Below, piece by piece: positions 8,401 through 49,500 of a DNA stretch of 64,000 nucleotides (within the stretch, counting starts at the first letter, position 1; every line of letters begins with the position of its first letter). A model generated the notes under the pieces. The model searched no databases and was not told the origin of the DNA. It was given only the letters and a program-made list of their open reading frames with translations. Both the position numbers and the translations under genes were made by a program. The stretch is from Carettochelys insculpta (Eukaryota; Chordata; Testudines; Carettochelyidae). The stretch spans positions 2,554,001-2,618,000 of the forward strand of contig NC_134138.1 of assembly GCF_033958435.1 (NCBI RefSeq), in the 5' to 3' direction.

Positions 8401-9662
8401 TGTTAGCCGATGGCCAAGGATGTTTGGTGAGGTGCCAGCTATGCCCGTTTTATACCATCCGTGACTTTAACCGCTAGGACGCACTGTCCCTTCGCGGCGG
8501 GCAGCCCGGGCTAGGCTGACGGATGCCCCAAGGTCCTAACCACCCGTGACTTTAACTGCTAGAGCTCAGAGCTCCTTCGCAGTGGGCAGTCAACACTGAC
8601 TGACAGGTGCCCCAATGGCAGCACTAAGAGCCTTTCCACACCCGTGACTTTAACTGCTAGAGCTCAGAGCTCCTTCGCAGTGGGCAGTCAGGATTGACTG
8701 ACAGGCGCCCCAAGAGTTTGCCCCGTGGAGGCGGCACAACTCAACGCTAGGCTCTTAGTACTCTCACCTAATGGCCAGGCTTTATAGCCAAAACGGCTGA
8801 GGTTCTTTAATTGTGTTGGCTGCTTTACAGTAAACCAGAGAAACAAGTTAGGCTTATGCACAAATGGTTACCAAAAATTTATTAAACTAGATTCTAATCA
8901 TGTGGTTACAAAATTGCTAGTGCCTACTTATTTAAATGTATAGATGTTACACACACAAACAAGTTACAAAGCTGAAGCCACAATCCCAAAGAAAGACAAC
9001 AAAGTATAGAGCTCTATTTCAAAATATGTGTACACTAAAGATAGGAGATCAGGTGTGGATGCTTCTTACCCTCCTTGCATCTCTCGATTCCAGCGGTGCC
9101 AAGCCAGGATCGGTCACTCAATTCCACGGAAAGACGAATAAGGGACAAGGCTCAGGGACCCTCTTAGCTGCAGAAGCCTTGGGAGGCTGTCACTTATCTG
9201 ACCAGCAGATAGTGAAAAGCACTCAAAAATCATGGTGCTGTAGGTCCCATACTTATACCTCTGTAATCCTTTATTCTCTTTCTCCTTTCTTATGCCAAAT
9301 TGGGGCTGGTCTGTCTGGGTGACGCCAGCTCTCGCAAGAGTAGTTTACACTTGCAAGGGAGAGAAACAATAAGTTTCGACTACTGGACATTCTTTTATTA
9401 GGGTAAATATTTTCCCACCTAGGATGTGGGTGTGTGTGCATCACGTTATTTAGTAGGGGCTAAGAGCCATGTCTGTCACAGCTTCTCTGTCTGCTGTGAG
9501 CCTAATCGTTGTATATGTTCCCAGAGGCACATTGCAGCAGCACACCTGTGCTTCTCACAGCTTCAAAGGCTGTGCTGGAATTTATGTTAAGTGCCCTGTT
9601 GTTTTGGCTCCCTTGTGTTCCCAGCAATGCTGGTCTGAGAGGGGGCTGGCTGTCTGGCTACA
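8401..9662 (-). mobile_element. Solo LTR, family A copy 1
   Basis: A 1,262-bp TG...CA block flanked by the perfect 5-bp target duplication TAGCT (8396-8400 and 9663-9667). A near-identical copy with a different 5-bp duplication is at 17599-18863, so both are independent insertions. The - strand carries AATAAA at 8878-8883, so the LTR reads in reverse. Three tandem units beginning CCGTGACTTTAAC start at 8459, 8544 and 8642. No internal retroviral or Gypsy genes flank it: it is a solo LTR left by LTR-LTR recombination. A 5-bp duplication is compatible with Gypsy or some endogenous retrovirus lineages. Confidence 0.9.
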
Positions 9663-10311: not shown

Positions 10312-10398
10312 CCAAAAATGAGTCCTGTGGTACCTTACAGACTAACAGACATTTTGAAGCATAAGCTTTCCTGGGCAAAGACTCATCTTGTCAGATGC
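10312..10398 (-). mobile_element. Short Penelope-end unit
   Basis: An 87-bp insertion flanked by the 9-bp duplication ATTTTATTG (10303-10311 and 10399-10407). It matches the terminal unit of the Penelope element at 27 kb (ACAGACTAACAGACATTTTG, GCATAAGCTTTC). The ribozyme-like core on the - strand is decayed (CTGACAA and GGAAAGC). Confidence 0.8.
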
Positions 10399-12465: not shown

Positions 12466-12653
12466 ACAGAGAGGGAGCTGTGCTAGTCTACATACTATCA
12501 AAACAAAAAAGCAGTCAAGGAGCACTTTAAAGACTAACAAAATAATTTATTAGGTGAGCTTTGGTGGGACAGACCCACTTCCCATGAAAGCTCACCTAAT
12601 AAATTATTTTGTTAGTCTTTAAAGTGCTACTTGACTGTTTTTTTGTTTTGATA
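12466..12653 (-). mobile_element. Fold-back pair of Penelope-end units
   Basis: A 188-bp insertion flanked by the perfect 12-bp target duplication GTACTTTCTGCA (12454-12465 and 12654-12665). The left part is a full unit (head GCTGTGCTAGTC, then GACTAACAAAATAATTTATT); the right part is the same unit inverted, without the last roughly 30 bp of the head. The two form 77-bp arms (12493-12569 and 12580-12656) with a 10-nt loop. The hammerhead-like core is damaged at the centre of symmetry. Confidence 0.88.
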
Positions 12654-14121: not shown

Positions 14122-14454
14122 CAGTGTCCGACATACTCTTCCTTCGCCACATGTGGCAAACTGGACAGCACGGTGTGGCGAAGCGGCTCATTAGAGCCGC
14201 ACACATGGAGCACCCTCTGCCCTTCCATGCATGCACCCCGCCACATGATGGGACAAGCGTATGGTGGCAGAGGTGGCTCCTTCTGCCGCACGCTCGGCTC
14301 CAGTGCTGGCTTGGGCAGGGTGGTTCCCATGGCAGCTCCAGCAAGTCACCAGCAGTTTGTGGAGGGGGCTGTGCCTGGGTGTGTGGATAGGGTGCCTGGC
14401 TGTGCCGGGGGGGGTGCTCTGTGGGAATTGTTAAGTTTCTTTTGGACACCACTG
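14122..14454 (-). mobile_element. hAT element, inverted relative of 5813-6061
   Basis: It starts near CAGTGTCCGACA and ends TTTTGGACACCACTG, the reverse complement of the left end of the element at 5813. It shares TTCGCCACATG and GGAGCAC blocks. The 8-bp duplication is no longer recognisable. Confidence 0.75.
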
Positions 14455-14947
14455 ATCTAAAGCAAGCAAGATAATTTGATAACTGCCCTGTTCTTTCATT
14501 CCCTCTGAAGCATTGGTCCCTGGCTGCTGGCGGAAGACAGGTTACTGGGCTAGCTGGATCATTATCAGCCACAGTGCAACACAGAGGTTGTGAGGTTCTG
14601 GTGGGCCCTGAAAATTATGCAAGGGGTGGCTGGAGTGGGGTGAAGTACTCTGAGGCCTTGCATAGTCTGAGGTTAAAAAATGTTATTTAATGTCTTTGGA
14701 AATTCTAGTGGAGATGTGTGCTGCCTTGACCTCGTGCTGTGCAACTCATGGAAACCTAGACCTTGAGTCGCTCAGCATGGCCCTTGCTGAAATATATATG
14801 CCACCTTGCCTAATCTAGGCTCTTAGAGCATGTTAATGAAAATTCTGCGCAGATCTTAATTCTGCATATTTTATTTGTCAGCTCTGGCCCTCCCTCTTAC
14901 TGGGACCCCACTCTTTAAATACCCCTCTGAAACTACCCCCCCTCCCC

Positions 14948-15045
14948 ACTCATGCATGTGATGAAGCAGGTCTTTGCCCACAAAAGCTTATGTTCCAAAA
15001 TATCCTTTAACCCATAAGGTGCCACAGGACTACTTGTTCTCGACA
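14948..15045 (+). mobile_element. Penelope-end unit
   Basis: Single unit in + orientation of the core: GTGATGA, then GCAGG...CCCAC hairpin remnants, AAAAGCTTATG, and the conserved ATAAGGTGCCACAGGACT stretch. First core base changed. Confidence 0.75.
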
Positions 15046-17598: not shown

Positions 17599-18863
17599 TG
17601 TTAGCCTATGGCCAAGGATGTTTGGTGAGGTGCCAGCTATGCCCGTTTTATACCATCCGTGACTTTAACCGCTAGGACGCACTGTCCCTTCGCGGCGGGC
17701 AGCCCGGGCTAGGCTGACGGATGCCCCAAGGTCCTAACCACCCGTGACTTTAACTGCTAGAGCTCAGAGCCCCTTCGCAGTGGGCAGTCAACACTGACTG
17801 ACAGGTGCCCCAATGGCAGCACTAAGAGCCTTTCCACACCCGTGACTTTAACTGCTAGAGCTCAGAGCTCCTTCGCAGTGGGCAGTCAGGATTGACTGAC
17901 AGGCGCCCCAAGAGTTTGCCCCGTGGAGGCGGCACAACTCAACGCTAGGCTCTTAGTACTCTCACCTAATGGCCAGGCTTTATAGCCAAAACGGCTGAGA
18001 TTCTTCAATTGTGTTGGCTGCTTTACAGTAAACCAGAGAAACAAGTCAGGCTTATGCACAAATGGTTACCAAAATTTATTAAACTAGATTCTAATCATGT
18101 GGCTACAAAATTGCTAGTGCCTACTTATTTAAATGTATAGATGTTACACACACAAACAAGTTACAAAGCTGAAGCCACGATCCCAAAGAAAGAAAACAAA
18201 GTATAGAGCTCTATTTCAAAATATGTGTACACTAAAGATAGGAGATCAGGTGTGGGTGCTTCTTACCCTCCTTGCATCTCTCGATTCCAGCGGTGCCAAG
18301 CCAGGATCGGTCACTCAATTCCGCGGAAAGACGAATAAGGGACAAGGCTCAGGGACCCTCTTAGCTGCAGAAGCCTTGGGAGGCTGTCACTTATCTGACC
18401 AGCAGATAGATAGTGAAAAGCACTCAAAAATCATGGTGCTGTAGGTCCCATACTTATACCTCTGTACTCCTTTATTCTCTTTCTCCTTTCTTATGCCAAA
18501 TTGGGGCTGGTCTGTGTGGGCGACGCCAGCTCTCGCAAGAGTAGTTTACACTTGCAAGGGAGAGAAACAATAAGTTTCGACTACTGGACATTCTTTTATT
18601 AGAGTAAATATTTTCCCACCTAGGATGTGGGTGTGTGTGCATCACGTTATTTAGTAGGGGCTAAGAGCCATGTCTGTCACAGCTTCTCTGTCTGCTGTGA
18701 GCCTAATCGTTGTATATGTTCCCAGAGGCACATTGCAGCAGCACACCTGTGCTTCTCACAGCTTCAAAGGCTGTGCTGGAATTTATGTTAAGTGCCCTGT
18801 TGTTTTGGCTCCCTTGTGTTCCCAGCAACGCTGGTCTGAGAGGTGGCTGGCTGTCTGGCTACA
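17599..18863 (-). mobile_element. Solo LTR, family A copy 2
   Basis: A 1,265-bp TG...CA block flanked by the perfect 5-bp duplication GACTG (17594-17598 and 18864-18868). By eye it differs from copy 1 at roughly twenty positions, including a 4-bp GATA repeat gain near 18408, so the two are about 98% alike. Same tandem units, same - strand AATAAA. It lies at the edge of a LINE fragment. Confidence 0.9.
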
Positions 18864-19293: not shown

Positions 19294-20725
19294 AGGTGGG
19301 GCGGAGCAGCCACTCCGCTCCCTGGAAGGAGAGGAACCCTTCCAGGAGCCATTTTGTAGTGAGCCTGGCCCCTCCCAGTCACCTCACTGGAAGTCAGGAG
19401 GCAGGGCCAGGACTCAAAAAGCCCAGCCTGAGGACTAAGTTTGGACTGCGCCGCCGGGGGAGCCAGAGGACTGCTCTGGGCTCCCAGCCTGGGAGGTTGA
19501 GGAGCGGCTGAGTGAGGCCAAGGCCTGGTTGGGCCTTCTGGGCCCTTGCCGATCCTGACGCCCTGGAGACCCCAGCGGAACCTGCATGCTGAGCACAGCC
19601 AGCCAGACCTACAGGACCGACCAGTGGACCGGCCTGAGCCTGCGCTCTGAGGCAGCACAGCTCATAGGCGATGCAGGCCTGGATCAGGCCACCCGGACCC
19701 CAGCTGGACCTGGAGCCCTGTGAGCCCCGAGAAGTCAGCCAAATGCTGGGTGTGTGCCGGGGAGGGCAGGGTGGAGACCAGAAGTGGCCCAGGGTAAGAG
19801 GACTGTTAAAGGGCCTCAGGTTGGCGTGTTGCCAGCTGAATTCCCCGCTGACCACGCTGCTGCGACCAGGGCCCCGGGGCTGGGGAGCAGTGGAGTGTGC
19901 AGACCCATGTCTCCCTGCCACCCACCTGCTGGGCGGCTGTCTCCCCCCTGCTTTGCCAAGGCAGGTGAAGCACCTGAGGAGACATCTTGAGCTAGGGCCA
20001 GGGCCTCCTGGGAACTGCTTGCTTGCTGCCCCATCCTGCCCTGCCCCGCACCAGTGCCTGGGCCTGCCCCACCTTGCACCAGGGCGTGGGCTCTTTTGGT
20101 TGTTCTGCTGCCCTGCCCTGAGCTAGGGCCTGGCCCTTCTATGAACTGTTGAGTTTGTTGTCTCACCCTGGGCCTGGGCCTGGGCCTGCCCTGCCTTGCA
20201 GTAAGGCTTGGGCTCTTGTATTTTGCTGCCCCTCCCTGAGTTAGGGCCTGGGCTCCCTTATAAGACTTTTTATTGCCCTGCCTTGCCTTACACCAGGGCT
20301 TGGGCTCCCATTTGGTATGTGCTGCCCTGCCTTGCAACAGGGTTTGGGCTCTTCTGAGTGCTGCCCCACCCTGAGAGAGGGCCTGGGCTTTCTAAAGACT
20401 GGTTGATTTATCGTCCCGCTCTGCACCAGGGCCTGGGCCTGCCCTGCCTTACTCCAGGACATGGGCTCCTTGTGGCTGTTTGCCGCCCTACCCTGAGCTA
20501 GGGCCGGGGGCCTTCTAAGACTGTGGGCTTGCTGTTGCTCTGATGGGAGCTAAATTTCCCCAGTGTCTGTTTGAAGCAAGGCCAGCCTTTGACTGTTGCT
20601 TCTCACCCACTTGAGCAAGGTGGGGACCCCTGAACTAATGACTTGGGGGTGTTGTGATACCCGTGGCAGTGGGGCGGAGTGGCTACCCACAGACCCGGAA
20701 GGGGAGGATCCCTTCCGGGAGCCTA
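19294..20725 (+). repeat. Gypsy-like element, left long repeat (LTR-like)
   Basis: This stretch aligns with 21578-22652: both share a GGGGCGGAG...CCTTCCAGGAGCC start, AGCCATTTTGTAGTGA, AGGCAGGGCCAGGACTC, ACTCTTAAAGGGCCTC-type middle blocks, and the end block with GACTTGGGGGTGTTGTG. The left copy is longer because of a minisatellite. Direct repeats flanking gag remnants are read as LTRs; exact ends are uncertain because a 55-bp GC-rich motif occurs at both ends of each repeat. Confidence 0.6.
20080..20540. repeat. Minisatellite inside the left long repeat
   Basis: About eight degenerate units of 45-60 bp built on GCTGCCCTGCC, AGGGCCTGGGCT and TTCTAAGACT. The right long repeat has only two to three units (22290-22470), so copy number changed after or during insertion. 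Confidence 0.75.
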
Positions 20726-21577: not shown

Positions 21578-22652
21578 GTAGTGGAGTGGAGCGGCCACCC
21601 CACTACTGGGAAGGGGAGGGCCCCTTCCAGGAGCCATTTTGTAGTGAACCTGGCACCTCCCAGTCGTCTGACCAGCAGTCAGGAGGCAGGGCCAGGACTC
21701 GAAAAGCCCAGCCTGAGGATTCAGTCCGGACTGCGCCTCCAGGGGAGCCAGAGGACGGCTCTGGGCTACCTGCCTGGGTGAGGCCAAGGCGTGGGTTGAG
21801 GGGCCTGGGCCCTTGCTGATCCAGATGCCCTGGGGACCCCAGAGGAACCTGCATGCTGAAGACGACTAGCTGGACCCAGAGGACCAACCTGCAGACTGGC
21901 CTCAGCCTGCACCCCAAGCCAGCCTGAGGCAGCACCATCAGCCTCACAGGCCTCGATCGGGCCACCCAGACCCCAGCCGCACCTGGAACCCCGTGAGCCC
22001 CGAGAAGTCAGCCAGACACTGGGTATGTGCTGGGGGGGCAGAGAGCAGTAGTGGCCCAGGGGGTAAGAGGACTATTAAAGGGCCTCGGGTTGGCATGTTG
22101 CGGGCTGGATTCCGCGCTAACCTGCGCAGCAAACCATGCTGCTGCAACCAGGGCCCCTGGGCCAGGACATGGAAGAGCGGGTGGGCCCGCCGCCCCCCAG
22201 CACTCACCTGCTGGGTGGCCATCTCCCCCTGCTCTGCCAAGGCAGGTGAAGTGCCTGAGATCTCCTGAGTGAGGAGACAACCTGAACTGTTGTTTGCTAC
22301 CCCACCCTGAGCTTAGAGCCTGAGCAGTCTGTGAACTGTTGGTGTGCTGCCCTGTGCCTGGGCCTGGCCCTGCCCCGCCTTGCACCAGGGCTTGGGCTCC
22401 CTTTGGCTGTTTGCCACCCTGCTCTGAGCTAGGGCCTGGACCTTCTAAGACTGGGCTTGCTGTTGCCCTGACGTGACCTAAATTCCCCCAGTGCCCGTCT
22501 GAAGCAAGGCCAGGCTTTGACTGTTGCCTCTCACCTACCTGGGCAAAGTGGGGACCCCCCAAACTAGTGACTTGGGGGTGTTGTGGTACCCAAGGCAGTG
22601 GGGTGGAGTGGCCGCCTACTGACCCGGAATGGTAGGATCCCTTCCGGGATCT
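21578..22652 (+). repeat. Gypsy-like element, right long repeat (LTR-like)
   Basis: Direct-repeat partner of 19294-20725, with the same order of blocks and fewer minisatellite units. It follows the zinc-knuckle remnant, as a 3' LTR would. Confidence 0.6.
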
Positions 22653-26365: not shown

Positions 26366-27329
26366 ACTGTGTAATGATTTGTCAGCAACTTGGTTTCCAT
26401 CTGGCATTACATTTAGATCTTGTACTTCCCAACGGGTGGAGTTTCGCAACAAAAAGGTGGATCAGTGGTAGATTTCTCTTTCATGACAAAATTCTAAGTC
26501 ATAAAAATATTGTGATGTTCTCTCATTCTGCCAGAATGAAATTTGTTTCTCTTCCTGTTTTTGTAGCTAGTGTACTATGGTATTTTGACACTGTCATTCC
26601 TGCCTCATGTGCCAAAAAAGTAATGAAACTTTACTCAGTTAAAAGTGTTCCATGTTTTTCATACCAAATGGTAGAAATGTTACATTATTGGGACTAGCTA
26701 ATTTTGTGGCAGGGTGTGGTTTTATTGGTGATGAACTTATTCTTCAAAACTTCACGCCAAAAATGGCTGAAGGTTCGGAAGGGAACAACAACATTCTGGA
26801 TGTTTTGCTCATGCCTCATTTTAAATAAACACGTACAAACTTACTGGTCTCTCTGAAAAATTAACCTTAAGTCTCGGTGCCTCCTTTTCCCTGCCGGGAG
26901 TGACAGGCAATACAGCAGTTCTGGCCCCTGGTTTTACAAAATATCATGCAAGTCCTTTATTTCCAGGCAAGTTGAATAGTAACAGAGGTAGCTGTGTTAG
27001 TCTGTGTTCTAACAAAACAAATCAGCTGTCATGTAGGACTTGAAAGATTAACAAAATAATTTACAAGGTGATGCGCTTTTGTGGTACAGACCCACTTCTT
27101 CAGATCAGTAGCATTTCCAGTACAGACTGACAGTATATAGCACACAGGTCCAAAATTAAATAAAAACTGACAAATCAGCTACATGGAACTGAAGGGGTGG
27201 GGCGGGGGGAATACAGATTATCTTGCCTCAGATCATTACACATACCAAAGGAAAGGAAACAGTGTGAGATAATTGCTGTCTCTATTGAGACCAAGTGATA
27301 ATGTGTCAAATCTGAGCCTGAACTCCAGT

Positions 27330-27545
27330 TCATGCGTCTCCCTTTATAATCTGCTGTTGAAGTCTCTTTGCTGTAGGACACAGTCCCAGGTGTTTAACAG
27401 GATGGCCCACTCCAGTGAAATGCTCACTGACAGGTTTGTGTGTATTCAGATTCCTGATGTCTGCTCTGTGCCCATTCGTTCTTTGGCGAAACGTTTGCCC
27501 AATGTATGTATTACAGGCACATTGCTGGCAGATGATGACACACAT
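27330..27545 (-). pseudogene. Penelope GIY-YIG endonuclease, sense copy
   Basis: The translation has CQQCACNTYIGQTFRQRTNG, HRADIRNLNTHKPVSEHFTG and VKHLGLC. YIG and the RxNGHR block match the GIY-YIG nuclease that nicks the target DNA in Penelope elements. A frameshift after LGLC ends similarity. Confidence 0.88.
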
Positions 27546-27567
27546 AACAGTGGTTGAGGTACAGGAG

Positions 27568-28214
27568 CACGAGCCCTGATCTTTTGATTAATATGGTTAA
27601 GTCCAGTGATGGTATTTCCAGAATAAATATCTGGACAAAGGTGACAACGGGATTTGTTGCAAGGAAAAGTTCCAGGATTAGTATTACTGTGAAATGACCC
27701 GTGAAAATTGGTAGTGAAAATTTACAAGTGAAAATTTTCCTTAGGTTAGGAGATTTTCTAGAGGAGAGATCAGGCCTCTCACCTAGGGCCTGCCAGACTG
27801 TAGTATCATGTTCTAGTGGGTAATTAAGTTTTACAAACGCTTGGTAGAGATCTTGAAGTTTTTGGTCTCTGTCAGTAGGATCAGAGCAGATATGGTTGTA
27901 TCTAAGGGCTTTACTATAAATGATGGTGTGGTGTGTGCTGGATGGAAGGTGGAAGCATGGAGGTAAGTGTCACAGTCAGTGGGTTTCTGGTGGAGAGTGG
28001 TCTTGATCCAGCCATCAGTGATCTGTACTGCGGAGTCCAGGAAATGGCTTTCTCGTGTGCAATGGTCAAGGCTGAGATTGGTAGGGTGCAGTTTGTTAAA
28101 ATCTCTGGACTTTTTCCAGAGCCTCTTTACTATGGGTCCAAATGATAATGTCATCAGTGTAATATAAGTAAAGGAGAGGTGATAGGAGATGAAAGCTGAG
28201 GAAACGTTCTCATT
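27568..28214 (-). pseudogene. Penelope reverse-transcriptase fragment
   Basis: Only the C-terminal palm, thumb and linker of the RT are left. The catalytic motif YTDD is encoded at 28150-28161 (- strand) in the context YLYYTDDIII, one frame away from the following segment, so there is a frameshift. Downstream FLDSAVQITDGWIKTTLHQK, PTDCDTYLHASTFHPAHT match conserved Penelope sequence. The N-terminal half is missing. Confidence 0.85.
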
Positions 28215-28238
28215 CTCCTGTACCTCAACCAATGTTAT

Positions 28239-28505
28239 ATGAGCCAGCAGTGCCGCTCTAATATGTACATTGGGCAAACGGGTCAAACACTGTGCCAGAG
28301 AATGAATGGGCACAGAACAGACATCAGGAACCTTAATACACACAAACCTGTCAGTGAGCATTTCACTGGAGTGGGCCATTCTGTTAAACACCTGGGACTA
28401 TGCATCCCACAACAAAGAGACTTTAACAGCAGATTACAAAGGGCAATGCGTGAATTGGATGTAGCTCAGGCTCAAATTCGATACATTATCACTTGGTCTC
28501 AATAG
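28239..28505 (+). pseudogene. Penelope GIY-YIG endonuclease, inverted second copy
   Basis: Same domain on the + strand: CRSNMYIGQTGQTLCQRMNG, then SEHFTGVGHSVKHLGLCIPQ and QRDFNSRLQRAMREL. It stays open to 28505, better preserved than the - strand copy, and contains the C-terminal segment the other has lost to frameshift. It is separated from any RT in its own orientation. Confidence 0.88.
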
Positions 28506-28692
28506 AGACAGCAATTATCTCACACTACAAGGACTATTGCCAGTCCTTTTTGTATTTGTAATGATTTCAAACAAGGCATTTAGTATCTCTCTCCTCCCCT
28601 TCAGTTCCATGTAGCTGATTGGTCAGTTTTTATTTAATTGTTTTGGACCTGTGTGCTATATACTGTCAGTCTGTACTGGAAATGCTACTGAT

Positions 28693-28728
28693 CTGACGAA
28701 GTGGGTCTGCCCCACAAAAACTCATCAC
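28693..28728 (+). ncRNA. Hammerhead-ribozyme-like core, decayed (PLE right arm)
   Basis: CTGACGA at 28693-28699 fits the hammerhead CUGANGA box. One A follows, then a GTGGG/CCCAC stem (28701-28705/28711-28715), then AAAA where GAAA is required. The matching - strand core in the left arm has CTGAAGA at 27097-27103 and also AAAA. Both have probably lost activity. Confidence 0.55.
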
Positions 28729-29389
28729 CTTATAAATTATTTTGTTAATCTTTAAAGTGCTACGTGACTTCTGGTTTATTTCCAGGCAGCTGTGCTAGAG
28801 CATCACCTTGAGGACTGTCTGAACATGATGTCTTTTTCGGGACGGGCAGAAAGCAGCATGGTTTGAATTTGCTCTGTGGCTGTTGAAGACCGAAGTAGGC
28901 CCTTAGCTAACTCTCTGCATGGCCCTGCCCTTCACCCAGAGGTTCTTTTACTGCAGCTACAAATGAGAGAAGAGTGGCTAGAGTGGGACAAGTTGTAGAC
29001 TGTTACAGTCTGCAAGAGACAAGTCTGTATGATCATAGCCTGGAGAGGAGTCAGCACCTGAGAATACCAAGACACAATCTAGTGTATGAAAGTTGAAGAA
29101 TTGCTGGCCTATGGGATGTATCCTCTCCCCTACTTGGCCACTCTTCTTGTCCCCACTACCTTGTGTGTTGCTCCTGCGTAGTGGGAAGCACTGCTTCTGT
29201 AGTGTGCTCGTCTCCAGCCAGTCCCCAGAGTGATCCTGATGAAAAATGGAGTCGGTGTGTGACTAAGCGGAAGGTCCCCACAGGGCCTACCTCTAAAATT
29301 TACATGGGAAACGAGAGACATTGAGAGGGGCTCTAGCCTTTGATGCTGTGTCGCTCGTAATGAATCCCTTTCATGTTGTGTTTTGACAG

Positions 29390-29498
29390 AGTGGAAGCAG
29401 CTTCCATGTGTTTGACCAAGGCCAGTTCGCCAAGGAGGTGCTTCCAAAGTACTTCAAACATAACAACATGGCCAGCTTCGTACGGCAGCTCAACATGT
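29390..29498 (+). CDS. HSF1: HSF1 coding exon 2 (DNA-binding domain, recognition helix)
   Basis: This exon encodes 36 codons plus one base of heat shock factor 1, the nuclear transcription factor that trimerises on stress and binds nGAAn elements of chaperone-gene promoters. The translation starts [20 protein letters not shown] and ends FVRQLNM, which is the middle of the winged-helix domain including recognition helix 3. An AG acceptor lies at 29388-29389 and a GTAAGT donor follows at 29499. The exon begins in phase 0 and leaves one base (T), which joins AT at the start of the next exon to give Tyr. Aligned to human HSF1 it covers residues 40-75. It is HSF1 rather than HSF2 because HSF2 has a different HVFDQGQF segment. 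Exon 1 should lie upstream and was not found. No frame damage is visible. Confidence 0.97.
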
Positions 29499-30530
29499 GT
29501 AAGTACCTTTCTGACAACTTTAGAAGTCAGAGCGTTAGGCCTACGCCTTGCTATGACGGTCACTTCTTCTGCCTGCATCTTTACTTAGCTGAAAGGGCAG
29601 TACAGGAGCATTCTGGGTAGCATTGGTTTAAAAGCATGGTAGCTTTGAAGCATCTTGTTGTCAGATGGCGGGGGCAGAGGATGGCTGAGAGAGCAGTCAT
29701 AAAGTTAGCCTTTGGTGGTGAGAGAGGACCTTCCATCCTCAAGCTTTGCAGATAAAGCAGCTGCTAACTGGCTTCTCTCAGTAGGCCTTGTTCACATTTT
29801 GATAGTGTTTCAGTGCAATCACCCATCCCTGCCTTGTGCCCTGTAGCCAAGAAGGGGAGAGGCATTTCCCTAAATCTCGTTCTTGCTCTTTTCTTCTTTC
29901 CTGCTTATGATGACCCAGCCTTAGAAGGGCAATGGAAGGCAGCACATGTCTGCATATGGTACCTGGTGCTGCTGCTGGAGGCAGCAATGCTGTGAGAATG
30001 GGTGACTACGAAGGGAGGTAAAGGCTCCTTGAAGAGAGCTGATTGTCAGAGAGGATCGGAGAAGCATCCCCAAAGAAATCCAAGCTTGCCATGGGCAGAA
30101 AGATATCCACGAGATAGCAAATATAGTTGGTTACAACTGAAAGCTGAATTCCTGTTGAACATCTGCCTGCATGCCTGCATTTTGTTTTGCTATTGAAAGT
30201 GGAGTGGACTTTCTGGTCCTCAGGAAGCAGAGCTCTGCTCTCACCTTTTGCTGGCTGGCAGGGGAATGGAGGTTTTGTAAGACCTTTTTCGCAGGGAGGA
30301 GAGCTCATCCATCTGGCTTGATTTCATACAGCCAGCCTATTGACCCCTGCTGGTCCCCTTACTGCAACTGACTCTAATGGAGCTGGGGGTACAGTTTACC
30401 TTTAGTGGAGTGGCCATAAATATGGATAATTTTGGCATAGGTTTGGCCTAAACATTGGTGTTTGTTAAGGCAGATGCTCCCCGTGGGTGGGAAAGGACTG
30501 CATGGGCTCAGAGCAAACAAGGAGACAGAA

Positions 30531-30631
30531 TTTCTGGATATGGTCTGAAGAAGTGGGTCTGTCCCACGAAAGCTCACCTAATAAACTATTTTGCTAGTCT
30601 TTAAAGTGCTACTTGACTGCTTTTTGTTTTG
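30531..30631 (+). mobile_element. Short Penelope-end unit with 12-bp duplication
   Basis: A 101-bp insertion flanked by the perfect duplication AAGGAGACAGAA (30519-30530 and 30632-30643). It carries the best preserved hammerhead-like core of the window. Confidence 0.85.
30545..30580 (+). ncRNA. Hammerhead-ribozyme-like core, conserved
   Basis: CTGAAGA (30545-30551), one A, stem GTGGG/CCCAC (30553-30557/30563-30567) with a TCTGT loop, then GAAA (30568-30571) and a weak stem III. The invariant CUGANGA and GAAA boxes are both intact. Hammerhead motifs are known from the terminal repeats of Penelope elements. The extra A before stem II and the very short stem III mean activity as a monomer is doubtful. 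Confidence 0.6.
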
Positions 30632-30651
30632 AAGGAGACAGAAGTCTGGGT

Positions 30652-30860
30652 ACAAAACAAAACAGCAGTTATGTGGCACTTTAAGACACTAACAGAATAA
30701 TTTATTAGGTGATGAGCTTTTGTGGGACAGACTCACTTTGTCAGGCAGTGGCTCTGTCCCACGAAAGCTTATCACCTAATAAACGATTTTGTTAGTCTTT
30801 CCAGTGCTACATGACTGCTTTTTTGTTTTGGTAGAATACAGACTAACAGGGCTAATTTAT
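30652..30860. mobile_element. Inverted pair of Penelope-end units
   Basis: The left unit (about 30652-30748, head first) and right unit (about 30750-30848, inverted) meet at a short spacer. Shared blocks are AATAATTTATTAGGTGATGAGC / its complement and GTCTGTCCCAC. On the + strand the right unit keeps GAAAGCTTATCACC but its CUGANGA box is changed. About 20 bp past 30848 another partial head-like piece follows. Confidence 0.75.
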
Positions 30861-31150
30861 TAAGTGATGAGCTTTCCTGGGGCTGTTGCACTTCCCAGAA
30901 GTAGGGGTGTTACCTACTTGTCTGCATTTAAGATCACAATAGCAAATCTGATTGCCAGGACATTGACACTTAGCAGCTAATACCCCAGAGGGATGCAGAT
31001 TTCCTCACCTCACCGGGAAGCTGGGCGCCATTCCCCTGGTGGAGTACAAAACACTGGGGGTTGGGAGTGTGTTAAGTGTTAGCTGCTGAAAGGAGTTGGG
31101 TCTCTCCACTGGTGTCTGTCCAGGAGGGTCAAAGAGCTTGAAACAAGGGG

Positions 31151-31243
31151 TCTGAAGAAGTTGGCTCTGTTCCACAAAAGCTCTTCACTGAATAAATCAT
31201 TTTGTTAGTCTTTAAGGTGCTACATTTCTGCTGCTTTGTTTTG
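31151..31243 (+). mobile_element. Short Penelope-end unit with 13-bp duplication
   Basis: A 93-bp insertion between TTGAAACAAGGGG (31138-31150) and TTGAAGCAAGGGG (31244-31256), one mismatch. CTGAAGA at 31152-31158 is intact; the GAAA box reads AAAA. Confidence 0.8.
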
Positions 31244-31729
31244 TTGAAGCAAGGGGTTCGCTACAGGTTGGCTGGCTTAACAGAATGGACTGTGCTTTAA
31301 CCTTCAGTTCTCTAGACTATAGTGAGGACTTACTCTGCTGGTTTCCAGTTAACTGATAAATCGTGTTTTGATGACCGTGTGGGGGTGCCAGTACTTGGTG
31401 TGGTGCATTCGTCCCTGAAGAGTGTACAAATCTCCCTCAGGTGACTGTCTCAGGGACTTGCAGAAGAGAGCTCTGAGCATGGTGCGTGAGTGCTGAAGGC
31501 CTAGAGTTCTAGTTTAAGAAGGCATTGGAGTCATTTGGCTTTCCTGGAGGAAGAGTGAGACTCATAGCAGGTCTGGCATCCTGAGGGGTTCCTCCTGTCA
31601 TCTGTTCCAAAGCTAGCAGCATGGCGCCGATCCTATGGATGAACGCCGCCTCATCTGTAACAGCAGCCCTTCCCAGAGTTCTCTAGCGGTCTTAACCCAA
31701 ACAGGGTTACCCCATAAACACAGCAACCT

Positions 31730-32860
31730 CGAACAAAATGGCAAATAAAATTTAATGTGGATAAATGTAAAGTAATGCACAGTGGAAAAAAATAACTCCA
31801 ACTATACATACAATATGATGGGGGTTAATTTAACTACAGCTAATCAGGGAAGAGATCTTGGAATCATTGGGACAAGTATGAGAGGGGTAGCAAAGCTAGG
31901 CTGTAGCTTCAAAAACAACAAGAAGTCTTGTTGTTTAGACTTATAGACTAATAGATATTTTGGAGCATAAGCTTTCATGGGCAAAGACCCACTTCACCAG
32001 ATGCAGGAAACCCCCACTCACACATCTGACGAAGCGGGTCTTTCCCAACAAAAGCTTATGTTTCAAAATATCTGTTAGTCTGTAGGGTGCCACAGGGCTT
32101 CTTGTTGTCTTGGAATCATTATGGATAGTCCTCTGAAAACATCCACACTGTGTGGAGCGGCAGTCTAGGAATCATTTAAAAAAGAGAATAAGATAGAGAT
32201 TATCTTATTGCTTTTATATAAAAGCATGGTACGCCCACATCTTGAATAGTGCATACAGATGTGGTCACCTCATCTCAAAAAAGATACACTGGCATTAGAA
32301 ACGGTTCAGAAAAGGGCAACTGAAATGATTAGGGGTTTGGAACAGGTCCCATATGAAGAGAAATTAGAGAGACTGGGACTTTTCAGCTTAGAAAAGAGGA
32401 GACTGGGGAGATATGATAGAGGTTTATAAAATGAGTGGTGTGGAAAAATGCACAAGGAAAAATTATTTACTTGTTTCTGTAATATAAGAACTAGGGGGCA
32501 CCAAATGAAATTAATGCACAGCAGGTTTAAAACAAAGAAAAGGAAATTCTTCTTCACACAACGCACAGTCAACCTGTGGAACTCCTTACCAGGGGAGGCT
32601 GTGAAGGCCAGGACTGTAACAGGGTTTAAAAAAGAGCTGGATGAATTCATGGAGGTTAGGTCTGTTAATGACTATTAGTCAGGCTGGGTAAGGAACGGTG
32701 GCCCTAGCCTCTGTTTGTCAGAAACTGGAGATGAATGGCAGGGCAGAGATCGTTACCTGTTTGATTCACTCCCTCTGGGGCACCTGGTATTGGCCACATT
32801 CGGCAGACAGTATACTGGGCTAGATGGACCTTTTGGTCTGACCCAGTATGGGATGGGACA
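31730..32860 (+). mobile_element. CR1 LINE, 3' part, with nested Penelope units
   Basis: CR1 in + orientation starting near AAATGGCAAATAAAATTTAA, with ORF2 C-terminal sequence (32448-32678: TRGHQMKLMHSRFKTKKRKF, FFTQRTVNLWNSLPGEAVKA) and the 3' end GGTCTGACCCAGTATGGGA near 32850. Interrupted at 31869-32108. Confidence 0.92.
31869..32108 (-). mobile_element. Fold-back pair of Penelope-end units nested in CR1
   Basis: A 240-bp insertion flanked by the perfect 12-bp duplication CTTGGAATCATT (31857-31868 and 32109-32120), which rejoins the CR1 when removed. The left unit has the full head (GAGGGGTAGC...CTTCAAAAACAACAAG); the right one is inverted and stops before the head. The + strand core has CTGACGA (32026-32032); the - strand core has CTGGTGA (complement of 31994-32000) and GAAA. 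Confidence 0.9.
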
Positions 32861-35287
32861 TTCTTGTGAACAAAAGATGAAAAGAATCCAGTTCTCAAAA
32901 TAAAGTTCCTAGCCTGCATGAGATGCTCCTTAACCTAAGTGACTTTTTTTAAACAGTTTCCAGAGCTCCAAGGCAAATATGCCATAGGCCTGAAATCCAT
33001 ACCCCTTTCATATAGAGAGGGCATGTAAGGTCAGTTAGTCTAATACCCTTTAGTCACTACATTTTGTCCTTAGGGTGAAGATTAGGCTCTCATACTTTTA
33101 GTAAGATATGTTGTAACCCTCTCAAGATGCACTGCCTGCGAGACAGTTCATATAGAGAAATACCCATACAAGTAGCTTTCTAATTCACTGTGATTATACT
33201 CCCAATTTACTTCTCCAAAAATAGCTAGTGCTTGAATGTATTTTCTTGTAAATTCATCTACATTTTTGGGTCTGTCTCTTGATATGGTGCAGGAAAGTAA
33301 GGTACTGAATAAGTTCCAGGGGGTGAAATCTTGACAAGGCTTTAAATGCAGTGCTCTTCCTGAGAAAAGTTCCTTGCTGAAATCTCTCACAGCAGACCTG
33401 AGAACAGGCACAAATAACTTCTTGCTTTAGATGGTGGGAAATGTTAATTAATTGTCAAAAGTACAATCTTTGCTAACATTGGTTTAAGTAAATTAAGACT
33501 CCTCCAAACTTTTCTTAGCTTGTATTTTTAACCTTGCCCTTGTTCTTTCTGCTGTCTGTTGCAACAGGAATTGATTCACTTGGGGGCTTACAGTAGGTGG
33601 CTGTTCAGTTCTTGAATATATTTTAGTTAGTTTGGACAAATCCAGACTGAAGTGGTTTGAGTGTCACTAGACCAACTAGTCCAGTGTGCTGGAAGAAAAG
33701 TTACCAGTTTGTTGTTGCTTAGCAAAGGATGTGCACTGAGTTTATTGGAATCTGCTTTGGTTTTCATATTGCAGGCAGATATATCTATTTCAATAATGTC
33801 TCCCTTGAGTTGTTTGGTGCTTATTCCTCCCTCGGAACATTTCAGTATAAAAGGAATTTTGGCCCACAGTGCAACTTGGCAAATTTAGAGTTATCCTGGT
33901 TAGATCACTAATCTGATTAGTTCTTGGAGTTGTGGTGACATGACTAGTTTAGCTTCTTTTTCTGACATGAGGGCAGTAAATCCAGTTATCTGTGTAAGTA
34001 ATCTCCTGTAAGCCATAAAATAAACTTCCCCGAAGAACCCTACGGAAACTTGCAGTTTTTAGTGCAAGCTGCTGTGCTGGCACATGGATATTTTAGTGAA
34101 ATATTCCAGACTAAGGAGCTACTATTCTGGGACAGAGGAATAGGCAGTACGGTCTGTTCAGAATCTGAAAACCATTTACCCCGATCTCATGGAATCTCTC
34201 TATTGCTATGATAATGTTAGTTCAATGCTCTCTATAAATGCATTGTGCTCTCTCTTGTGGGGCCGGGCCCTAACTTGTGTTTCTCAGGGCTACTTTTACT
34301 CTGAGAACATGCAAGGAAATGCAGAACTGATAAGGTTTTGTGAGTGAATGGTAGCACTTCTCAGAGATCTCTGGGTGACTTTGACTACTCTTGCCTGCTG
34401 CCAGCTCAGCAAAGCAGAAAAGTGCTGGGATTATCCTAGAGACTTTGCTTCAAGGCAGTCTGCTCAGCTTCCTCTCAGCACACAAATACTTATATTTACC
34501 TTTTGGCTTTAAATTCTTATGATAGGCAGGAACATAAAGGATGCCTTTCATATACCCTGCACCTACAGGGTATATCAAGGATTAGCCTTAATACTCCAGA
34601 TGTGGGCTTTAGAAAGTATTCCAGTGCTGTTAGAAAGGATGACAGTTTCATTGCCTTTCAGCACTAGGCCTTTGAATAACTGTGGGGCATGATGTCTCCA
34701 TGGTTCATGACCAAGAGCTTTGGTTTCTAAGGATCACTTGAAAAGCAGAAACTGGTTAATGTCACTCAGTTTCTCTAAATCATTTACTAGGTGCTCCAGT
34801 GCAGGAAGCTCTTTTCAACCACAGCTGGGGTCTGATTTACATAACACTTCAGAGCCACCCTTCTTGATTTATCCTACTGCTTTGCAAAACTGGCACATTC
34901 AAAAAATAGTTTGCAGAGGATTTGTGTGCTGTTGAGTGTTTTCTAGATGTTCTAAGAGTGTCTGAAGTTTTGAGTACATCCTTGTTGCCTAAACTGCTCA
35001 GAAAGCACTTTTCAGCATGTCACTTCTTCCCTTCTCCCATCAAGTAGTGAATTGTGTAAGATCAACTTTTTTACCAGCAGATCATATAACATCCCTATCA
35101 AAAGCTCCTTTTAAAACACGTCGGTTGTAACAAACCGCTCAAAGCCAGGAAGTTCCTAGCCGAGGGCTCAATTTCAAACCAAGGGTCTGGACCAGCTGTG
35201 CTTGTTTATAGTTATTTTAACCCTGCTGTTTTTGTGAGGCGAGGGGGCAGGGGCGTAAAAACCATTTCTGAGTTGAATGCAGTGGAC

Positions 35288-39120: not shown

Positions 39121-39537
39121 TGTGATGGGGTTCAGGGGTCCCCCTGCACTGCACCCCGTCCGCTGGCAGGAGTGACTCTCACTCAGCAGGTACAACAGAT
39201 GGTTTATTAGGCAACAGGTGCCCAGTTTCTCACAGAAGCGACAGCATAGCAGCCAGAGACAGTCCTTCCAACCTGTCCTGGGGAGAAGACCCCGAGGGGT
39301 GCCCCTCTGGGGTGTAGCTTTCCCCCTCCTCAGGCTGGCTGCCTTCCAGCTCTCCCTTTTCCTAGCCTCTAACTGCCACCCCCGATTCAAACCCCTCTCA
39401 GCTCCTCCCTGCTCTTTGTTCAGGCAGAGGTGTTACCTGCCAGTTGTAGCCCCAGGGTCATCCTTAGCCACTGGGAGCTGCTGCTTGCCTCAGACATCCA
39501 GCCTGACTCACACATGCACTCCCCCCACTCCATCACA
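39121..39537 (-). mobile_element. Solo LTR, family B copy 2 (inside DIRS relic)
   Basis: A 417-bp block TGTGATGG...CCATCACA with the perfect 5-bp duplication GATGG (39116-39120 and 39538-39542). It is very close to copy 1 at 1467-1885 apart from a few substitutions and 1-2-bp indels. The - strand carries AATAAA near the left end. Confidence 0.8.
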
Positions 39538-42949: not shown

Positions 42950-43097
42950 GTAAGTGCACGTAACAGATATTCCAGTCCAGCCCATAAATGAGCCACTCTG
43001 ACACGAAGGGGCTGTCTGGCTCTCCTGAGTCAGAAAAGCAGCAGCATGCTCTGGATGCAAATGGGATATTGGCTCTGTCCTTTTCCCTCTCTGTCAA

Positions 43098-43190
43098 GTG
43101 GCATCTGACGCAGCGGGTCTTTGCCCACGAAAGCTGATGTTCCAAAAAATCTGTTAGCCTATAAGGTGCCACAGGACTTCTCGTTTTTAA
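43098..43190 (+). mobile_element. HSF1: Penelope-end unit in intron 3
   Basis: A single unit with CTGACGC (43105-43111, last core base changed), stem remnants GCGGG/CCCAC, an intact GAAA box, then CTGTTAGCCTATAAGGTGCC. It lies about 150 bp after the exon 3 donor. Only a short AAGTGG repeat flanks it. Confidence 0.8.
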
Positions 43191-45500: not shown

Positions 45501-47566
45501 AGCAACCAACCCTGCAATCCTCTGCGCAGTAAGGCTGTGCTGACTTCTCTCTGCGATCCAGCACAGATGGCAGCCAGAGAGGATGGTAAGAACAGGGAGA
45601 TGTCTTCCTGCCTGTCTGGTGTCTGCACCAGCCCTAACACTGCATGGGGCTAGATCTTTCTCTCAGTTCTCTTCCATCAGAATGCGGATGTTCTGGTCTC
45701 CGTGTTCTTACACTATACCTATCACCTTGATGTTCAAATGACAGGATAATTCCTACTCCTCTCTTCTAATAATGCAGCCTGCTTCCAGCCTTAAGTCCGC
45801 CATTTAAATCTGTACTTGTCACTAGCAACTCAACACTTTTCCCTTGCATGAGAGCATACAGCATATGATCTTGTGTAGTCCGTTAATGCTCTTTGGGGGT
45901 CATGACAGAGTGCTGTTGATCATCCTTTTTATGAGACTAAGCCTGCCCCCCCCGCACGCGTGAAGGGAGATTTCAGACATAAGTAGCCACTTCACATTGG
46001 GGTCTCTATCCATGCAGCAGCGGCTGGTTTTCTTGCCGGTTAGGAAATTTACTCTGGGAGTTTTCGGAGCCACCTAAGATTGAAAGACCCGATTTCCCTG
46101 GGAAATGGGCATACAGATCCCTGGGGAGTATTTGTACATCTCATCAGGCTGAACTAGGTCAATCATTCTGAACGTTGTGATCTCCTCTGTGAGATTTGAT
46201 CAAGGTCAATGAGGCTAAATGTCCAAAGTTTGTGTTGAGGAGTCCTGCTAAGGGTTGTACTGCTGTGGCTTATGAACAGCAAAGGAGGCTGTCTGGTGCA
46301 GCTCTAGCCTTCAGCTCACTTGCGGAACAGAGCAGTAAGGCTGACTCTGTCCATGCCCAATGGAGAGCACCTTGTACATAGAGCTCATGCCGTAGTGCTG
46401 GTCACATGCGTGGAAGTGGAGAGAACCTGCTTTGTCTCCAAGTTCTAGATGCGTCTCTTGAGCTTCTGTGTGCCCAGCCAGTGGTGTAAAATGCAGTTCT
46501 CTTTGGGCTCTTAGGTGCCAGGTGAGGAGGAAAAGTAGATCTTCCTGACCTCTCCCATAAGCAAAGATGTCTTGTAAAATGCCTCTGTACAATGCGCAGT
46601 GTCTGCTTTTCCTGCGCTCCAGTATGTGCAGGGGGCTATTGAGCTTCCTTTTGCCTTCTGGCAGATCATGATTTTTCCAGCGGGACTTTGAATAAGAACT
46701 CTCCTGTGCAGTCACCATTAACGATACCCAAGATCTTTCTTGGTGCAGGCCATTGCAGCAAGCTTGTAGCCTGCTGGGAAGTTTTGTTCCTCAGAGAGGA
46801 TGTCTTTACCACTCATCTGAAACTTACAAGTTACAGCTGATCAATTGTCAATAATGGAAACTGTGCTAAATCTGTACTAGGACAACCCAGTATCCCTGAG
46901 GTGGAAGCTAATTTTCATCCCACTTCTGGAAAATGTATCAGCTGCCTACAACCATCTGAGGCTGCTGCTTGGGCTAAGGCAGGGCTTCTGTCGCCTGCCG
47001 GTGCTAGACCCATCTGCTCGGTCTCAGTCCGTTGCACAGTTCTTTCCTTGTTTGTTCTTACCCTAGGGGATACAGAGCTTGAGGGCGTGCAGCAGTCATA
47101 CTGGTTCCCACTGGCCAGTCTTACAGTCCTACGTTGCTTCCGAGCTGTATTTTTGTCCCGCCATTGGTTGGTGTGCATGCACACAGCCTCTGACTTCTTG
47201 CTGGTGTGACAGCAACAGAAACTGGAGAAACCTAAACAAGAGCTCTGGGTAAGCTCAAAAGCTTCTCTCTCCCCAGCAGAAGCTGGTCCACTAAATGATA
47301 TTATCTCCTTTATCATGGCTTAGCAGTAGAAAGTGGTGTCCTGCTTTATTAGAAGAGCAGCCATCCTGATGCCATCTCTTTGGCAGAGGATTGGGTACTG
47401 TTCAGACAGATAACTGGTCTGTGCAATGTCTAGTGTAGTGGGGCCCCAGGCAGACTAGGGACTTGTAGGTGCCACTGTAATTACAAATAACTCTTCCCTG
47501 GGAGGCAGAAGGGCACATCTAATTTGCATAGAAGTAGTTTGCTGCAGAGTTTATCTGTCCCAGATA

Positions 47567-47684
47567 TCTGAGGGGTAGCCGTGTTAGTCTGGATCTGTAA
47601 CAGCAACGAAGGGTCCTGTGGCACCTTATAGACTAACAGAAAAGTTTTGAGCATGAGCTTTCGTAAGCACAGACTCACTTCATC
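47567..47684 (-). mobile_element. Penelope 3' terminal unit (left of the CR1)
   Basis: The head GAGGGGTAGCCGTGTTAGTC begins near 47567 and the unit ends CACTTCATC at 47684, inside the complement of the CUGAUGA box. On the - strand it keeps a GTGAG/CTTAC stem, GAAA (complement of 47659-47662) and GCTCATGCTC as stem III. It continues beyond the CR1 at 49131. Confidence 0.85.
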
Positions 47685-49130
47685 ATAAGAACATAAGAAT
47701 GGCCATACTGGGTCAGACCAAAGGTCCATCCAGCCCAGTATCCCGTCTGCCGACAGTGGCCAATGCCAGGTGCCCCAGAGAAGGAGAACAGAAGACACTG
47801 ATCAAGTGATTTATCTCCTGCCCTTGTACTGAAGGCCAGGGCACCATACTGTACCCCTGGCTAATAGCCATTTATGGACCTAACCTGCAAAAATTTATCA
47901 AGCTCTTTTTTAAACCCTAATAGAGTCCTGGCCTTCACAGCCTCCTCCGGCAAGGAGTTCCACAGGTTGACTGCGCGCTGTGTGAAGAAAAAATTCCTTT
48001 TATTAGTTTTGAACCTGCTACCCATCAATTTCATTTGGTGTCCCCTAGTTCTTGTATTACGGGAAAAGGTAAATACTTTTTCTATATTCACTTTCTCCAC
48101 ACCATTCATGATTTTATATACCTCTATCATATCGCCCCTCAATCGCCTCTTTTCCAGACTGAAAAGTCCCAGTCTCTCTAGCCTCTCCCCATATGGGACC
48201 CGTTCCAAACCCCTAATCATCTTAGTCGCCCTTTTCTGAATCTTTTCTAATGCCAATATATCTTTTTTGAGGTGAGGAGACCACATCTGCACGCAGTACT
48301 CAAGATGTGGGCGTACCATAGTTTTATAGAGGGGAAGTATGATATCTTTTGTCTTATTATCTATCCCTTTTTTAATAATTCCTAACATCCTAGTTGCTTT
48401 ACTAACTGCCGCTGCACACTGCGTGGATGTCTTCAGAGAACTATCCACTATAACTCCAAGATCCCTTTCCTGATCTGTCGTAGCTAAATTTGACCCCATC
48501 ATGTTGTACGTGTAATTTGGGTTATTTTTTCCAATGTGCGTTACCTTACACTTACCCACATTAAATTTCATTTGCCATTTTGCTGCCCAATCACTCAGTT
48601 TGCTGAGATCTTTTTGTAGTTCTTCACCATCCCTTTTGGTTTTGACTGTCCTGAACAACTTGGTGTCATCTGCAAACTTTGCCACCTCACTGCTTACCTC
48701 ATTTTCTAGATCATTGATGAACAAGTTGAACAGGATCGATCCCAGGACTGACCCCTGGGGAACACCACTAGTTACCCCCCTCCATTGTGAAAATTTACCA
48801 TTTATTCCAACCCTTTGTTTTCTGTCTTTTAACCAATTCCCGATCCATGAAAGGATCTTTCCTCCTATCCCATGACCGCCTAATTTACATAAAAGCCTTT
48901 GGTGTGGGACCGTGTCAAAGGCTTTCTGGAAATCTAGGTATATTATGTCCACTGGGTGCCCCTTGTCCGCATGTTTATTAACCCCTTCAAAGAATTCTAA
49001 TAGATTAGACAGACACGACTTCCCTCTGCAGAAACCATGCTGACTTTTGCCCAACAATTCGTGCTCTTCTACGTGCCTTGCAATTTTATTCTTTACTATT
49101 GTTTCTACTAATTTGCCTGGTACTGATGTT
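47685..49130 (-). mobile_element. CR1 LINE inserted inside the Penelope end
   Basis: A 1,446-bp CR1 on the - strand with its 3' end at 47685 (ATAAGAACATAAGAATGGCC) and truncated at about 49130. It contains one long open frame (next entry). The flanks 47684 and 49131 rejoin to a continuous Penelope sequence when it is removed; no clear target duplication, as is usual for CR1. Confidence 0.92.
47861..49057 (-). pseudogene. CR1 ORF2 C-terminal part, 398 codons open
   Basis: The longest open frame of the window. It starts within RT (GKSQHGFCRGKSCLSNLLEF), has DIIYLDFQKAFD with the first catalytic Asp (residue 43), SGVPQGSVLG (97-106), the FADD catalytic motif (128-131) and the CR1 thumb and C-terminal region ending EVRSINGY-like. 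The endonuclease and the first RT motifs are missing through 5' truncation, so it cannot act alone. Absence of stops over 1.2 kb marks it as one of the youngest CR1 copies here. No HSF1 relation. Confidence 0.93.
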
Positions 49131-49500
49131 AGATGCTGGTCTTGGAAATCTGCAGGGCCAGGTATAAATAAGCCAGAGCAAGGGTGGGGATAACAAGGTT
49201 AGCTCAGTCAGCAAGGGTGAAGCTTACTACCAGCAGTTGATCTGGAGGTGTGAACACCAAGGGAGGGGCAGCTGCTTTTGTATTTAGCCAGCCATTCAGA
49301 GTCTTTAAGCCTGAGCCAACGGCGTCGAATTTGCAGATGAATTGCAGCTCAGAAATTTCTCTTTGGAGTCTGGTCCTGAAATTTCTTTGCTGTAGGATAG
49401 CTGTCCCAGATAGTAACTGGCTAGAGAAGTCCTGGCATGCCGTGCTCATCTCTGGCTATTTTTTGGATGAAGTGCGTTATTTGTGACTGAGTGTCTGGGA
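49131..49500 (-). mobile_element. Penelope C-terminus and 3' UTR (right of the CR1)
   Basis: The - strand translation has SSQLLSGTAILQQRNFRTRL, QREISELQFICKFDAVGSGL, the typical end of the Penelope endonuclease ORF, followed by a 3' UTR reaching 49131. It belongs to a different Penelope subfamily from the 27-kb copy. The upstream end is unclear. Confidence 0.8.

Follow-up and report, generated by a model that had tools for sequence, protein, structure and literature searches.

A 64-kb window (the whole stretch of Carettochelys insculpta DNA that was analysed) contains 15 copies of a single terminal unit of a Penelope-like element (PLE), and we consider it highly probable that these are PLE insertions whose pLTR encodes a minimal type I hammerhead, most of the copies now being dead. 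A preliminary description of this DNA had assigned the units to Penelope and noted a hammerhead-like core, and both points hold up. The copies were collected by searching with three units derived from the window itself; they split into two subfamilies, A and B, with mixed features of both in copy 47685. Four units, 12582(-), 12564(+), 30744(-) and 30895(-), were absent from the preliminary description. Among the positions that it listed, 28693, 31152, 32026 and 43105 match the core, and the rest mark real copies but lie 4-8 bases away from the true first core bases, at 27103(-), 32000(-), 47686(-), 10394(-) and 14958; the copy that it placed at 30750 has lost CTGANGA and retains most of the hairpin and GAAA. 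The hammerhead region is kept in 11 of the 15 units, to which our structure counts refer, the excluded units being the four truncated inside the hammerhead (12582-, 12564+, 30731+ and 30895-). A stricter structure set comprises the eight copies that also retain the 5' side of stem I.

In their anatomy the units resemble typical PLE insertions, with TSDs, inverted pLTR pairs and an optional tail of 30-40 nt (Table 1). TSDs of 9-14 bp occur at six insertions, three of them solo units (10312-10398, 30531-30631 and 31151-31243) and three head-to-head pairs (12466-12653, 26970-28774 and 31869-32107). All three TSD-bounded pairs carry a 3' tail extension on the inverted arm that is absent from the direct arm, and the extension is found outside these pairs on 30731+ and 47685-. 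Penelope insertions of Adineta vaga, as described in the available part of PMC3846280, likewise have head-to-head inverted pLTRs with a tail optional on one of them, and TSDs of 8-10 bp. Two of our three TSD-bounded pairs differ in consisting of short terminal units only, and the word hammerhead is absent from the main text of PMC3846280. Five PLE units lie within ~700 bp on both strands at 30531-31243, which suggests repeated insertion into or near older copies.

The arms of the long pair are 81% identical across 587 columns, and the relics within them, identified by eye from motifs in the translations, are presumably RT-like and GIY-YIG-like. One of four pieces matched Pfam GIY-YIG, at E=0.091 and with 13.5 bits, below the cut-off of 22.6; an unrelated family matched just as weakly, and the X-joined piece matched no Pfam family. 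A protein search gave 12 candidates, none at E<=0.001, and a solved-structure sequence search gave no match. Exact-pattern scans of viral and genome contig collections, which hold no animal genomes, returned nothing, as expected, and sequence strings sought in the literature gave two matches, both judged irrelevant from the listing. The minus-strand unit at 47565-47686 starts at the 3' end of a repeat at 47683-49133 in the same orientation, which we take to be CR1-like, as with the other repeat so labelled here; at this junction, either the unit would have inserted at the CR1 tail or the template would have switched from one RNA to the other.

Table 1. PLE units and related features in the 64-kb window (arms and units are named by position and strand).
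Feature	Coordinates	Strand	Details
Solo PLE terminal unit, 101 bp	30531..30631	+	Only copy with intact CTGANGA and GAAA (strict motif); TSD AAGGAGACAGAA, 12 bp identical, 30519-30530 and 30632-30643
Hammerhead region of the 30531 unit	30541..30579	+	Stem I of 3 bp (GGU/ACC), core, extra A, stem II of 5 bp, GAAA, AGCU, C17; predicted cut after 30575
Solo PLE unit, 93 bp	31151..31243	+	Starts one base ahead of core; GAAA changed to AAAA; TSD 13 bp, one mismatch
Solo PLE unit, subfamily B, 87 bp	10312..10398	-	First letters GCATCTGA; core damaged; 9-bp TSD
Solo PLE unit, subfamily B	43102..43188	+	GAAA retained; core and H17 damaged; TSD weak, 6 bp only (AAGTGG at 43096 and 43189)
PLE unit, subfamily B	14944..15041	+	Core and stem II damaged; no convincing TSD on inspection
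Head-to-head PLE pair	12466..12653	.	Tail extension on 12582 minus arm, lacking on 12564 plus arm; junction within hammerhead; 12-bp identical TSD
Head-to-head PLE pair, long arms, 1.8 kb	26970..28774	.	14-bp identical TSD at 26956 and 28775; minus arm with RT-like and GIY-YIG-like relics and hammerhead 27069-27107(-); plus arm with GIY-YIG-like relic and hammerhead 28689-28727(+)
Three short PLE units, -,+,- order	30653..30895	.	30744-, 30731+, 30895-; two truncated within hammerhead, one at first core base; no convincing TSD on inspection
Head-to-head subfamily B pair	31869..32107	.	Tail extension on 32003 minus arm; plus arm 32011; sits in CR1-like repeat; 13-bp identical TSD
PLE unit with tail extension	47565..47686	-	Directly adjoins 3' end of CR1-like repeat

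The units share a layout of stem I (4 bp), CUGANGA, an extra nucleotide, stem II (5 bp), GAAA, AGCU and H17, which, as far as sequence can tell, is that of a minimal type I hammerhead of the kind reported from PLEs. The ancestral hammerhead would read UGAU-CUGAAGA-A-GUGGG-UCUGU-CCCAC-GAAA-GCUC|AUCA in subfamily A and GCAU-CUGACGA-A-GYGGG-UCUUUG-CCCAC-GAAA-GCUU|AUGC in subfamily B, where the bar marks the predicted cut; these strings are readings rather than strict majorities, and the 11-copy alignment has AAAA more often than GAAA. CTGANGA is intact in five of the 11 copies and GAAA in five, and a single copy has both. This is the copy at 30545, correctly described at the outset as keeping both boxes (30545-30571 (+), CTGAAGA-A-GTGGG-TCTGT-CCCAC-GAAA). 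Position 17 is C in six copies, U in four and G in one.

A strict motif (CTGANGA, 0-1 nt, a stem of at least 4 bp, a loop of 3-8, GAAA) has its single match in the 64 kb, counting both strands, at 30545, and occurs in 40 dinucleotide shuffles with a mean of 0.075 and a maximum of 1. With one mismatch allowed over both boxes there are eight matches, compared with a shuffle mean of 1.75 and a maximum of 4; five are PLE units and three lie outside them (33305+, 42903- and 12380-). Because of this background, the argument from hairpin and boxes alone is modest. Rfam hammerhead models, the search that the preliminary description had proposed as a check, gave no match across the window at gathering thresholds, and none among the matches listed at E<=5 in 26500-33000 or at E<=10 in 30525-30635 and 43085-43160. 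Rfam microRNA-precursor matches in 30542-30895 (MIR5638 and five other families) fell far below gathering scores and were set aside; they would arise from inverted units pairing with each other.

Stem I provides a stronger argument than the hairpin, because its pairing must span the core and the cleavage position. It differs between the subfamilies (UGAU/AUCA versus GCAU/AUGC) and is paired in both, and swapping its halves between them leaves two contiguous pairs. Four contiguous pairs form in seven of the eight copies that have the 5' side and three in the other, compared with four pairs in 2.3% of random window tetramers; the eight are related copies rather than independent tests, and represent only about two independent stem I states. 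Within this set 96.9% of stem I cells are paired, with both-sided changes at three of the four pairs. The remaining three of the 11 copies do not form stem I, their 5' side being flank or lost. The GGU/ACC variant of the 30531 unit is weak as an independent compensatory state, since the usual 3' half can pair with its 5' half as well.

These pairings bear on the idea that the resemblance is fortuitous, the ancestor of the repeat having happened to hold CTGANGA, a hairpin and GAAA. Such an accident would be in keeping with copies that share one ancestor and so are not independent, and with a strict motif that occurs just once against its shuffle mean. However, the two subfamilies use different bases to pair stem I on either side of the expected cleavage position, and the accessible part of PMC6155905 states that hammerhead motifs are present in all available PLE sequences. 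We regard mere accident as very improbable.

The preliminary description had placed covariation in the hairpin, where there is hardly any; it is found instead in stem I, between subfamilies. Stem II forms all five pairs in 4/11 copies and at least three in all 11, with uncompensated mismatches in seven, and across the eight-copy set both-sided changes occur at none of its five pairs. Its only compensated variant is GUGAG/CUUAC in copy 47685, which involves one pair, and its second pair is a C.A mismatch in three of five subfamily B copies. With one such pair in 1/11 copies, hairpin covariation was dropped as the main support.

Scored over the whole structure, covariation in the eight copies reaches 0.260; shuffles average 0.100, with 0/500 as high, and slid controls reach at most 0.115. 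For 11 copies the score is 0.233 against 0.143 when shuffled, with 2/500 as high and one slid control at 0.176. Counts of double-changed pairs and of pair types are unremarkable, as shuffles reach them in 86 and 128 of 500 cases for eight copies and in 62 and 293 of 500 for 11. We also set a covariance model trained on five subfamily B copies against a sequence-only model. For the four non-B copies matched end to end, the structure and sequence-only models, whose bits are only roughly comparable, gave 34.4 versus 20.8 bits (28689), 31.7 versus 24.6 (47651), 31.3 versus 21.3 (30541) and 25.5 versus 17.5 (27069). Among other non-B copies, 30744 and 12582 gained slightly from the structure model and 30731 did not, and the 31149 copy was found by neither subfamily B model. 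Three matches of the structure model outside PLE units, at 14131(-), 51495(-) and 500(+) with E from 0.14 to 2.3, were taken as noise.

The proposal that ribozymes survive in the short units is not borne out, as core and GAAA are both intact in only one of 11 copies and most changes at the C11.1-G12 step are those that CpG decay would give. The C11.1-G12 step of the 15 units is CG in four, CA in six, TG in two, GG in two and CC in one; GAAA is gone in seven units, six of which have CA. Judging by the hammerhead consensus and by the copies with TG, CG is probably the ancestral state, in which case eight of the 11 changed copies would be of CpG-deamination type. Neutral decay would explain much of what had been described as changed forms of the boxes. 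The C3 changes in 14944 and 47685 are not of CpG-deamination type.

In the canonical hammerhead no nucleotide lies between A9 and G10.1. All 11 copies depart from this, with an extra nucleotide between A9 and stem II that is A in ten and G in one; this nucleotide and the short stem III were both noted in the preliminary description, and recur throughout the set. An unpaired A directly after A9 is likewise reported, in the accessible text of PMC3705267, for the plus hammerhead of chrysanthemum chlorotic mottle viroid, which differs in being a plant viroid with reported self-cleavage during transcription. AGCU stands without a loop in the place of stem III in 9/11 copies, and GAAA is followed by GCU and then H17. 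As the loopless A15.1-G-C-U16.1 is self-complementary, helix III is possible only between two copies.

The 39-mer 30541-30579 has an MFE of -11.6 kcal/mol in a fold that contains stems I and II, mildly better than shuffles (z -1.31, 21/200 as good). Region 31965-32004 also beats its shuffles (z -2.29), and the whole unit 30531-30631 (z 0.18), 31151-31243 and 47651-47690 fold no better than theirs. By nearest-neighbour estimate, a double-hammerhead of the 30541 copy has -20.7 kcal/mol versus -23.2 for two monomers, and the two subfamily strings give -17.5 versus -20.0 and -19.9 versus -25.6 kcal/mol; the best dimer fold of 30541 (-28.1 kcal/mol) differs from the double-hammerhead. Activity as a dimer only is plausible, although these estimates do not favour the double-hammerhead.

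The structure may have been conserved for another role, such as PLE protein binding or marking the RT template, without being a working ribozyme in this lineage. The extra core nucleotide and loopless stem III of all 11 copies and the unfavoured double-hammerhead in silico point in that direction, as do anole PLE hammerhead mutants reported to insert normally in vitro (PMC11167929, as far as accessible). Yet both subfamilies have a recognisable core and GAAA box, and the same source reports that the anole hammerhead cleaves once protein is added. We judge this other role somewhat unlikely.

Returning to PLE insertions with a pLTR-encoded hammerhead, the RNA of the living element would have been selected to fold as a hammerhead, and probably cut itself weakly. 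Cutting may have been aided by two copies sharing a 4-bp AGCU/AGCU stem III, by the protein of the element, as in the anole PLE, or by both. The window units would have been reverse transcribed from uncut RNA, with synthesis initiated internally, close to the tail, and continued across the ribozyme; decay would have followed insertion.

Tail-only and hammerhead-only queries at E<=0.5 placed hammerhead sequence upstream of the tail in 15/15 units, all of which run through the predicted cleavage site, and 0/15 start there. The only other tail match, 18 nt at 43629 (E 0.29), was taken as chance. Since every unit crosses the cleavage site, none appears copied from 5'-cut RNA, and hammerhead cutting does not look like the route to insertion. 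For the anole PLE (Poseidon PAc, Anolis carolinensis), the accessible part of PMC11167929 reports a hammerhead that cuts only with protein, insertion in vitro that does not need cutting, uncut RNA as the main template, RT that starts internally, both target strands cut and extended, and two RT start sites that account for the tail. That hammerhead likewise has stem I, stem II and loop II only, and the crossing of the cleavage site by all our units agrees with its uncut main substrate in vitro (PMC11167929); activity was shown there, whereas the window units are likened to it by description, from their sequence.

In two tail-extended units, 47560-47690 (-) and 30731-30856 (+), TGTTAGTCT is predicted to pair with downstream AGACTAACA; the short 3' end would then fall in the loop and the long one past the stem, an arrangement reminiscent of the anole PLE with its two RT start sites. 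The other two of the four folded tail-extended units (27107- and 12582-) have a different predicted fold.

Short, apparently non-coding units with a type I hammerhead motif, in a window with PLE relics, might also be expected if they were non-autonomous elements similar to retrozymes, spreading through circular RNA that the hammerhead cuts. None of nine tandem-repeat rows is an array of PLE units, the hammerhead is minimal rather than canonical, and no unit starts at the cleavage site. We rejected the retrozyme reading on these grounds and hold it to be extremely unlikely.

The finding fits published PLE hammerheads; beyond these, the start points of the units are the most informative additional clue. 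Relative to core base C3, solo units start at -4 (10398), -14 (30531) and -1 (31151), and the 43102 unit, with its weak TSD, at -3 or -4; G at 43101, its outermost stem I base, may be target sequence. These four solo units (three good duplications, one weak) start 1-14 nt upstream of the core, the 47686 unit begins right at the core against the CR1-like 3' end, and two inverted arms, 30744 and 32003, have their ends close to the core. Counter to such clustering, 14944 and 32011 share ~10 nt farther upstream (CCCCACTCA), other arms break off within the hammerhead, and 26970-28774 is a long pair. We treat the clustering of solo starts at the ribozyme 5' edge, seen in three to four bounded solo units of one window, as a lead. 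It is doubtful that the folded hammerhead marks a 5' boundary, set either by the end of RT from the tail or by the start of the template RNA. Such a boundary would imply a PLE class of precise 85-100 nt units, ribozyme plus tail, in place of random 5' truncation, which is similarly improbable.

Minimal type I hammerheads are reported in the thousands from animal genomes, mostly dispersed and PLE-linked, lacking non-conserved helix III nucleotides and with proposed dimer action, in the accessible parts of PMC7761336 and PMC6155905, the former describing the role of the PLE class as unknown. The PLE hammerheads of Cervera and de la Pena 2014 and Lunse et al. 2017, so far as these sources were available, resemble ours in terminal-repeat location, stems I and II, absence of non-conserved helix III nucleotides, the dimer proposal and dispersed animal copies; the nucleotide inserted after A9 and before stem II, in 11/11 copies here, may set ours apart. 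Minimal hammerheads with proposed dimer action are already published for PLEs, and the novelty that the preliminary description had envisaged falls away. Our data extend this class by a PLE family whose core has an extra nucleotide and whose stem I covaries between subfamilies, and bear on the role of the ribozyme through the lack of starts at the cleavage site and the solo starts at the ribozyme 5' edge. Literature on hammerhead (ribozyme), Penelope and turtle held nothing relevant, judged by titles. In the Repbase name Penelope-2_CPB, CPB presumably denotes the painted turtle. That name is listed in a table of PMC9004415, in the part of the paper available.

The window also contains other repeats. 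Two 1.26-kb copies, 8401-9662 and 17599-18863, are 98.3% identical, have TG...CA-like ends and different short flanking repeats by eye, and look like two recent solo LTRs. A 420-bp repeat at 1467-1885 and 39121-39537 is 96.7% identical between copies, one of which has the ends TGTGATGG...CCATCACA, and is possibly a young DNA transposon. Diverged local duplications, of about 67-81% identity, occupy 19296-20720 and 21581-22649 in a GC-rich stretch.
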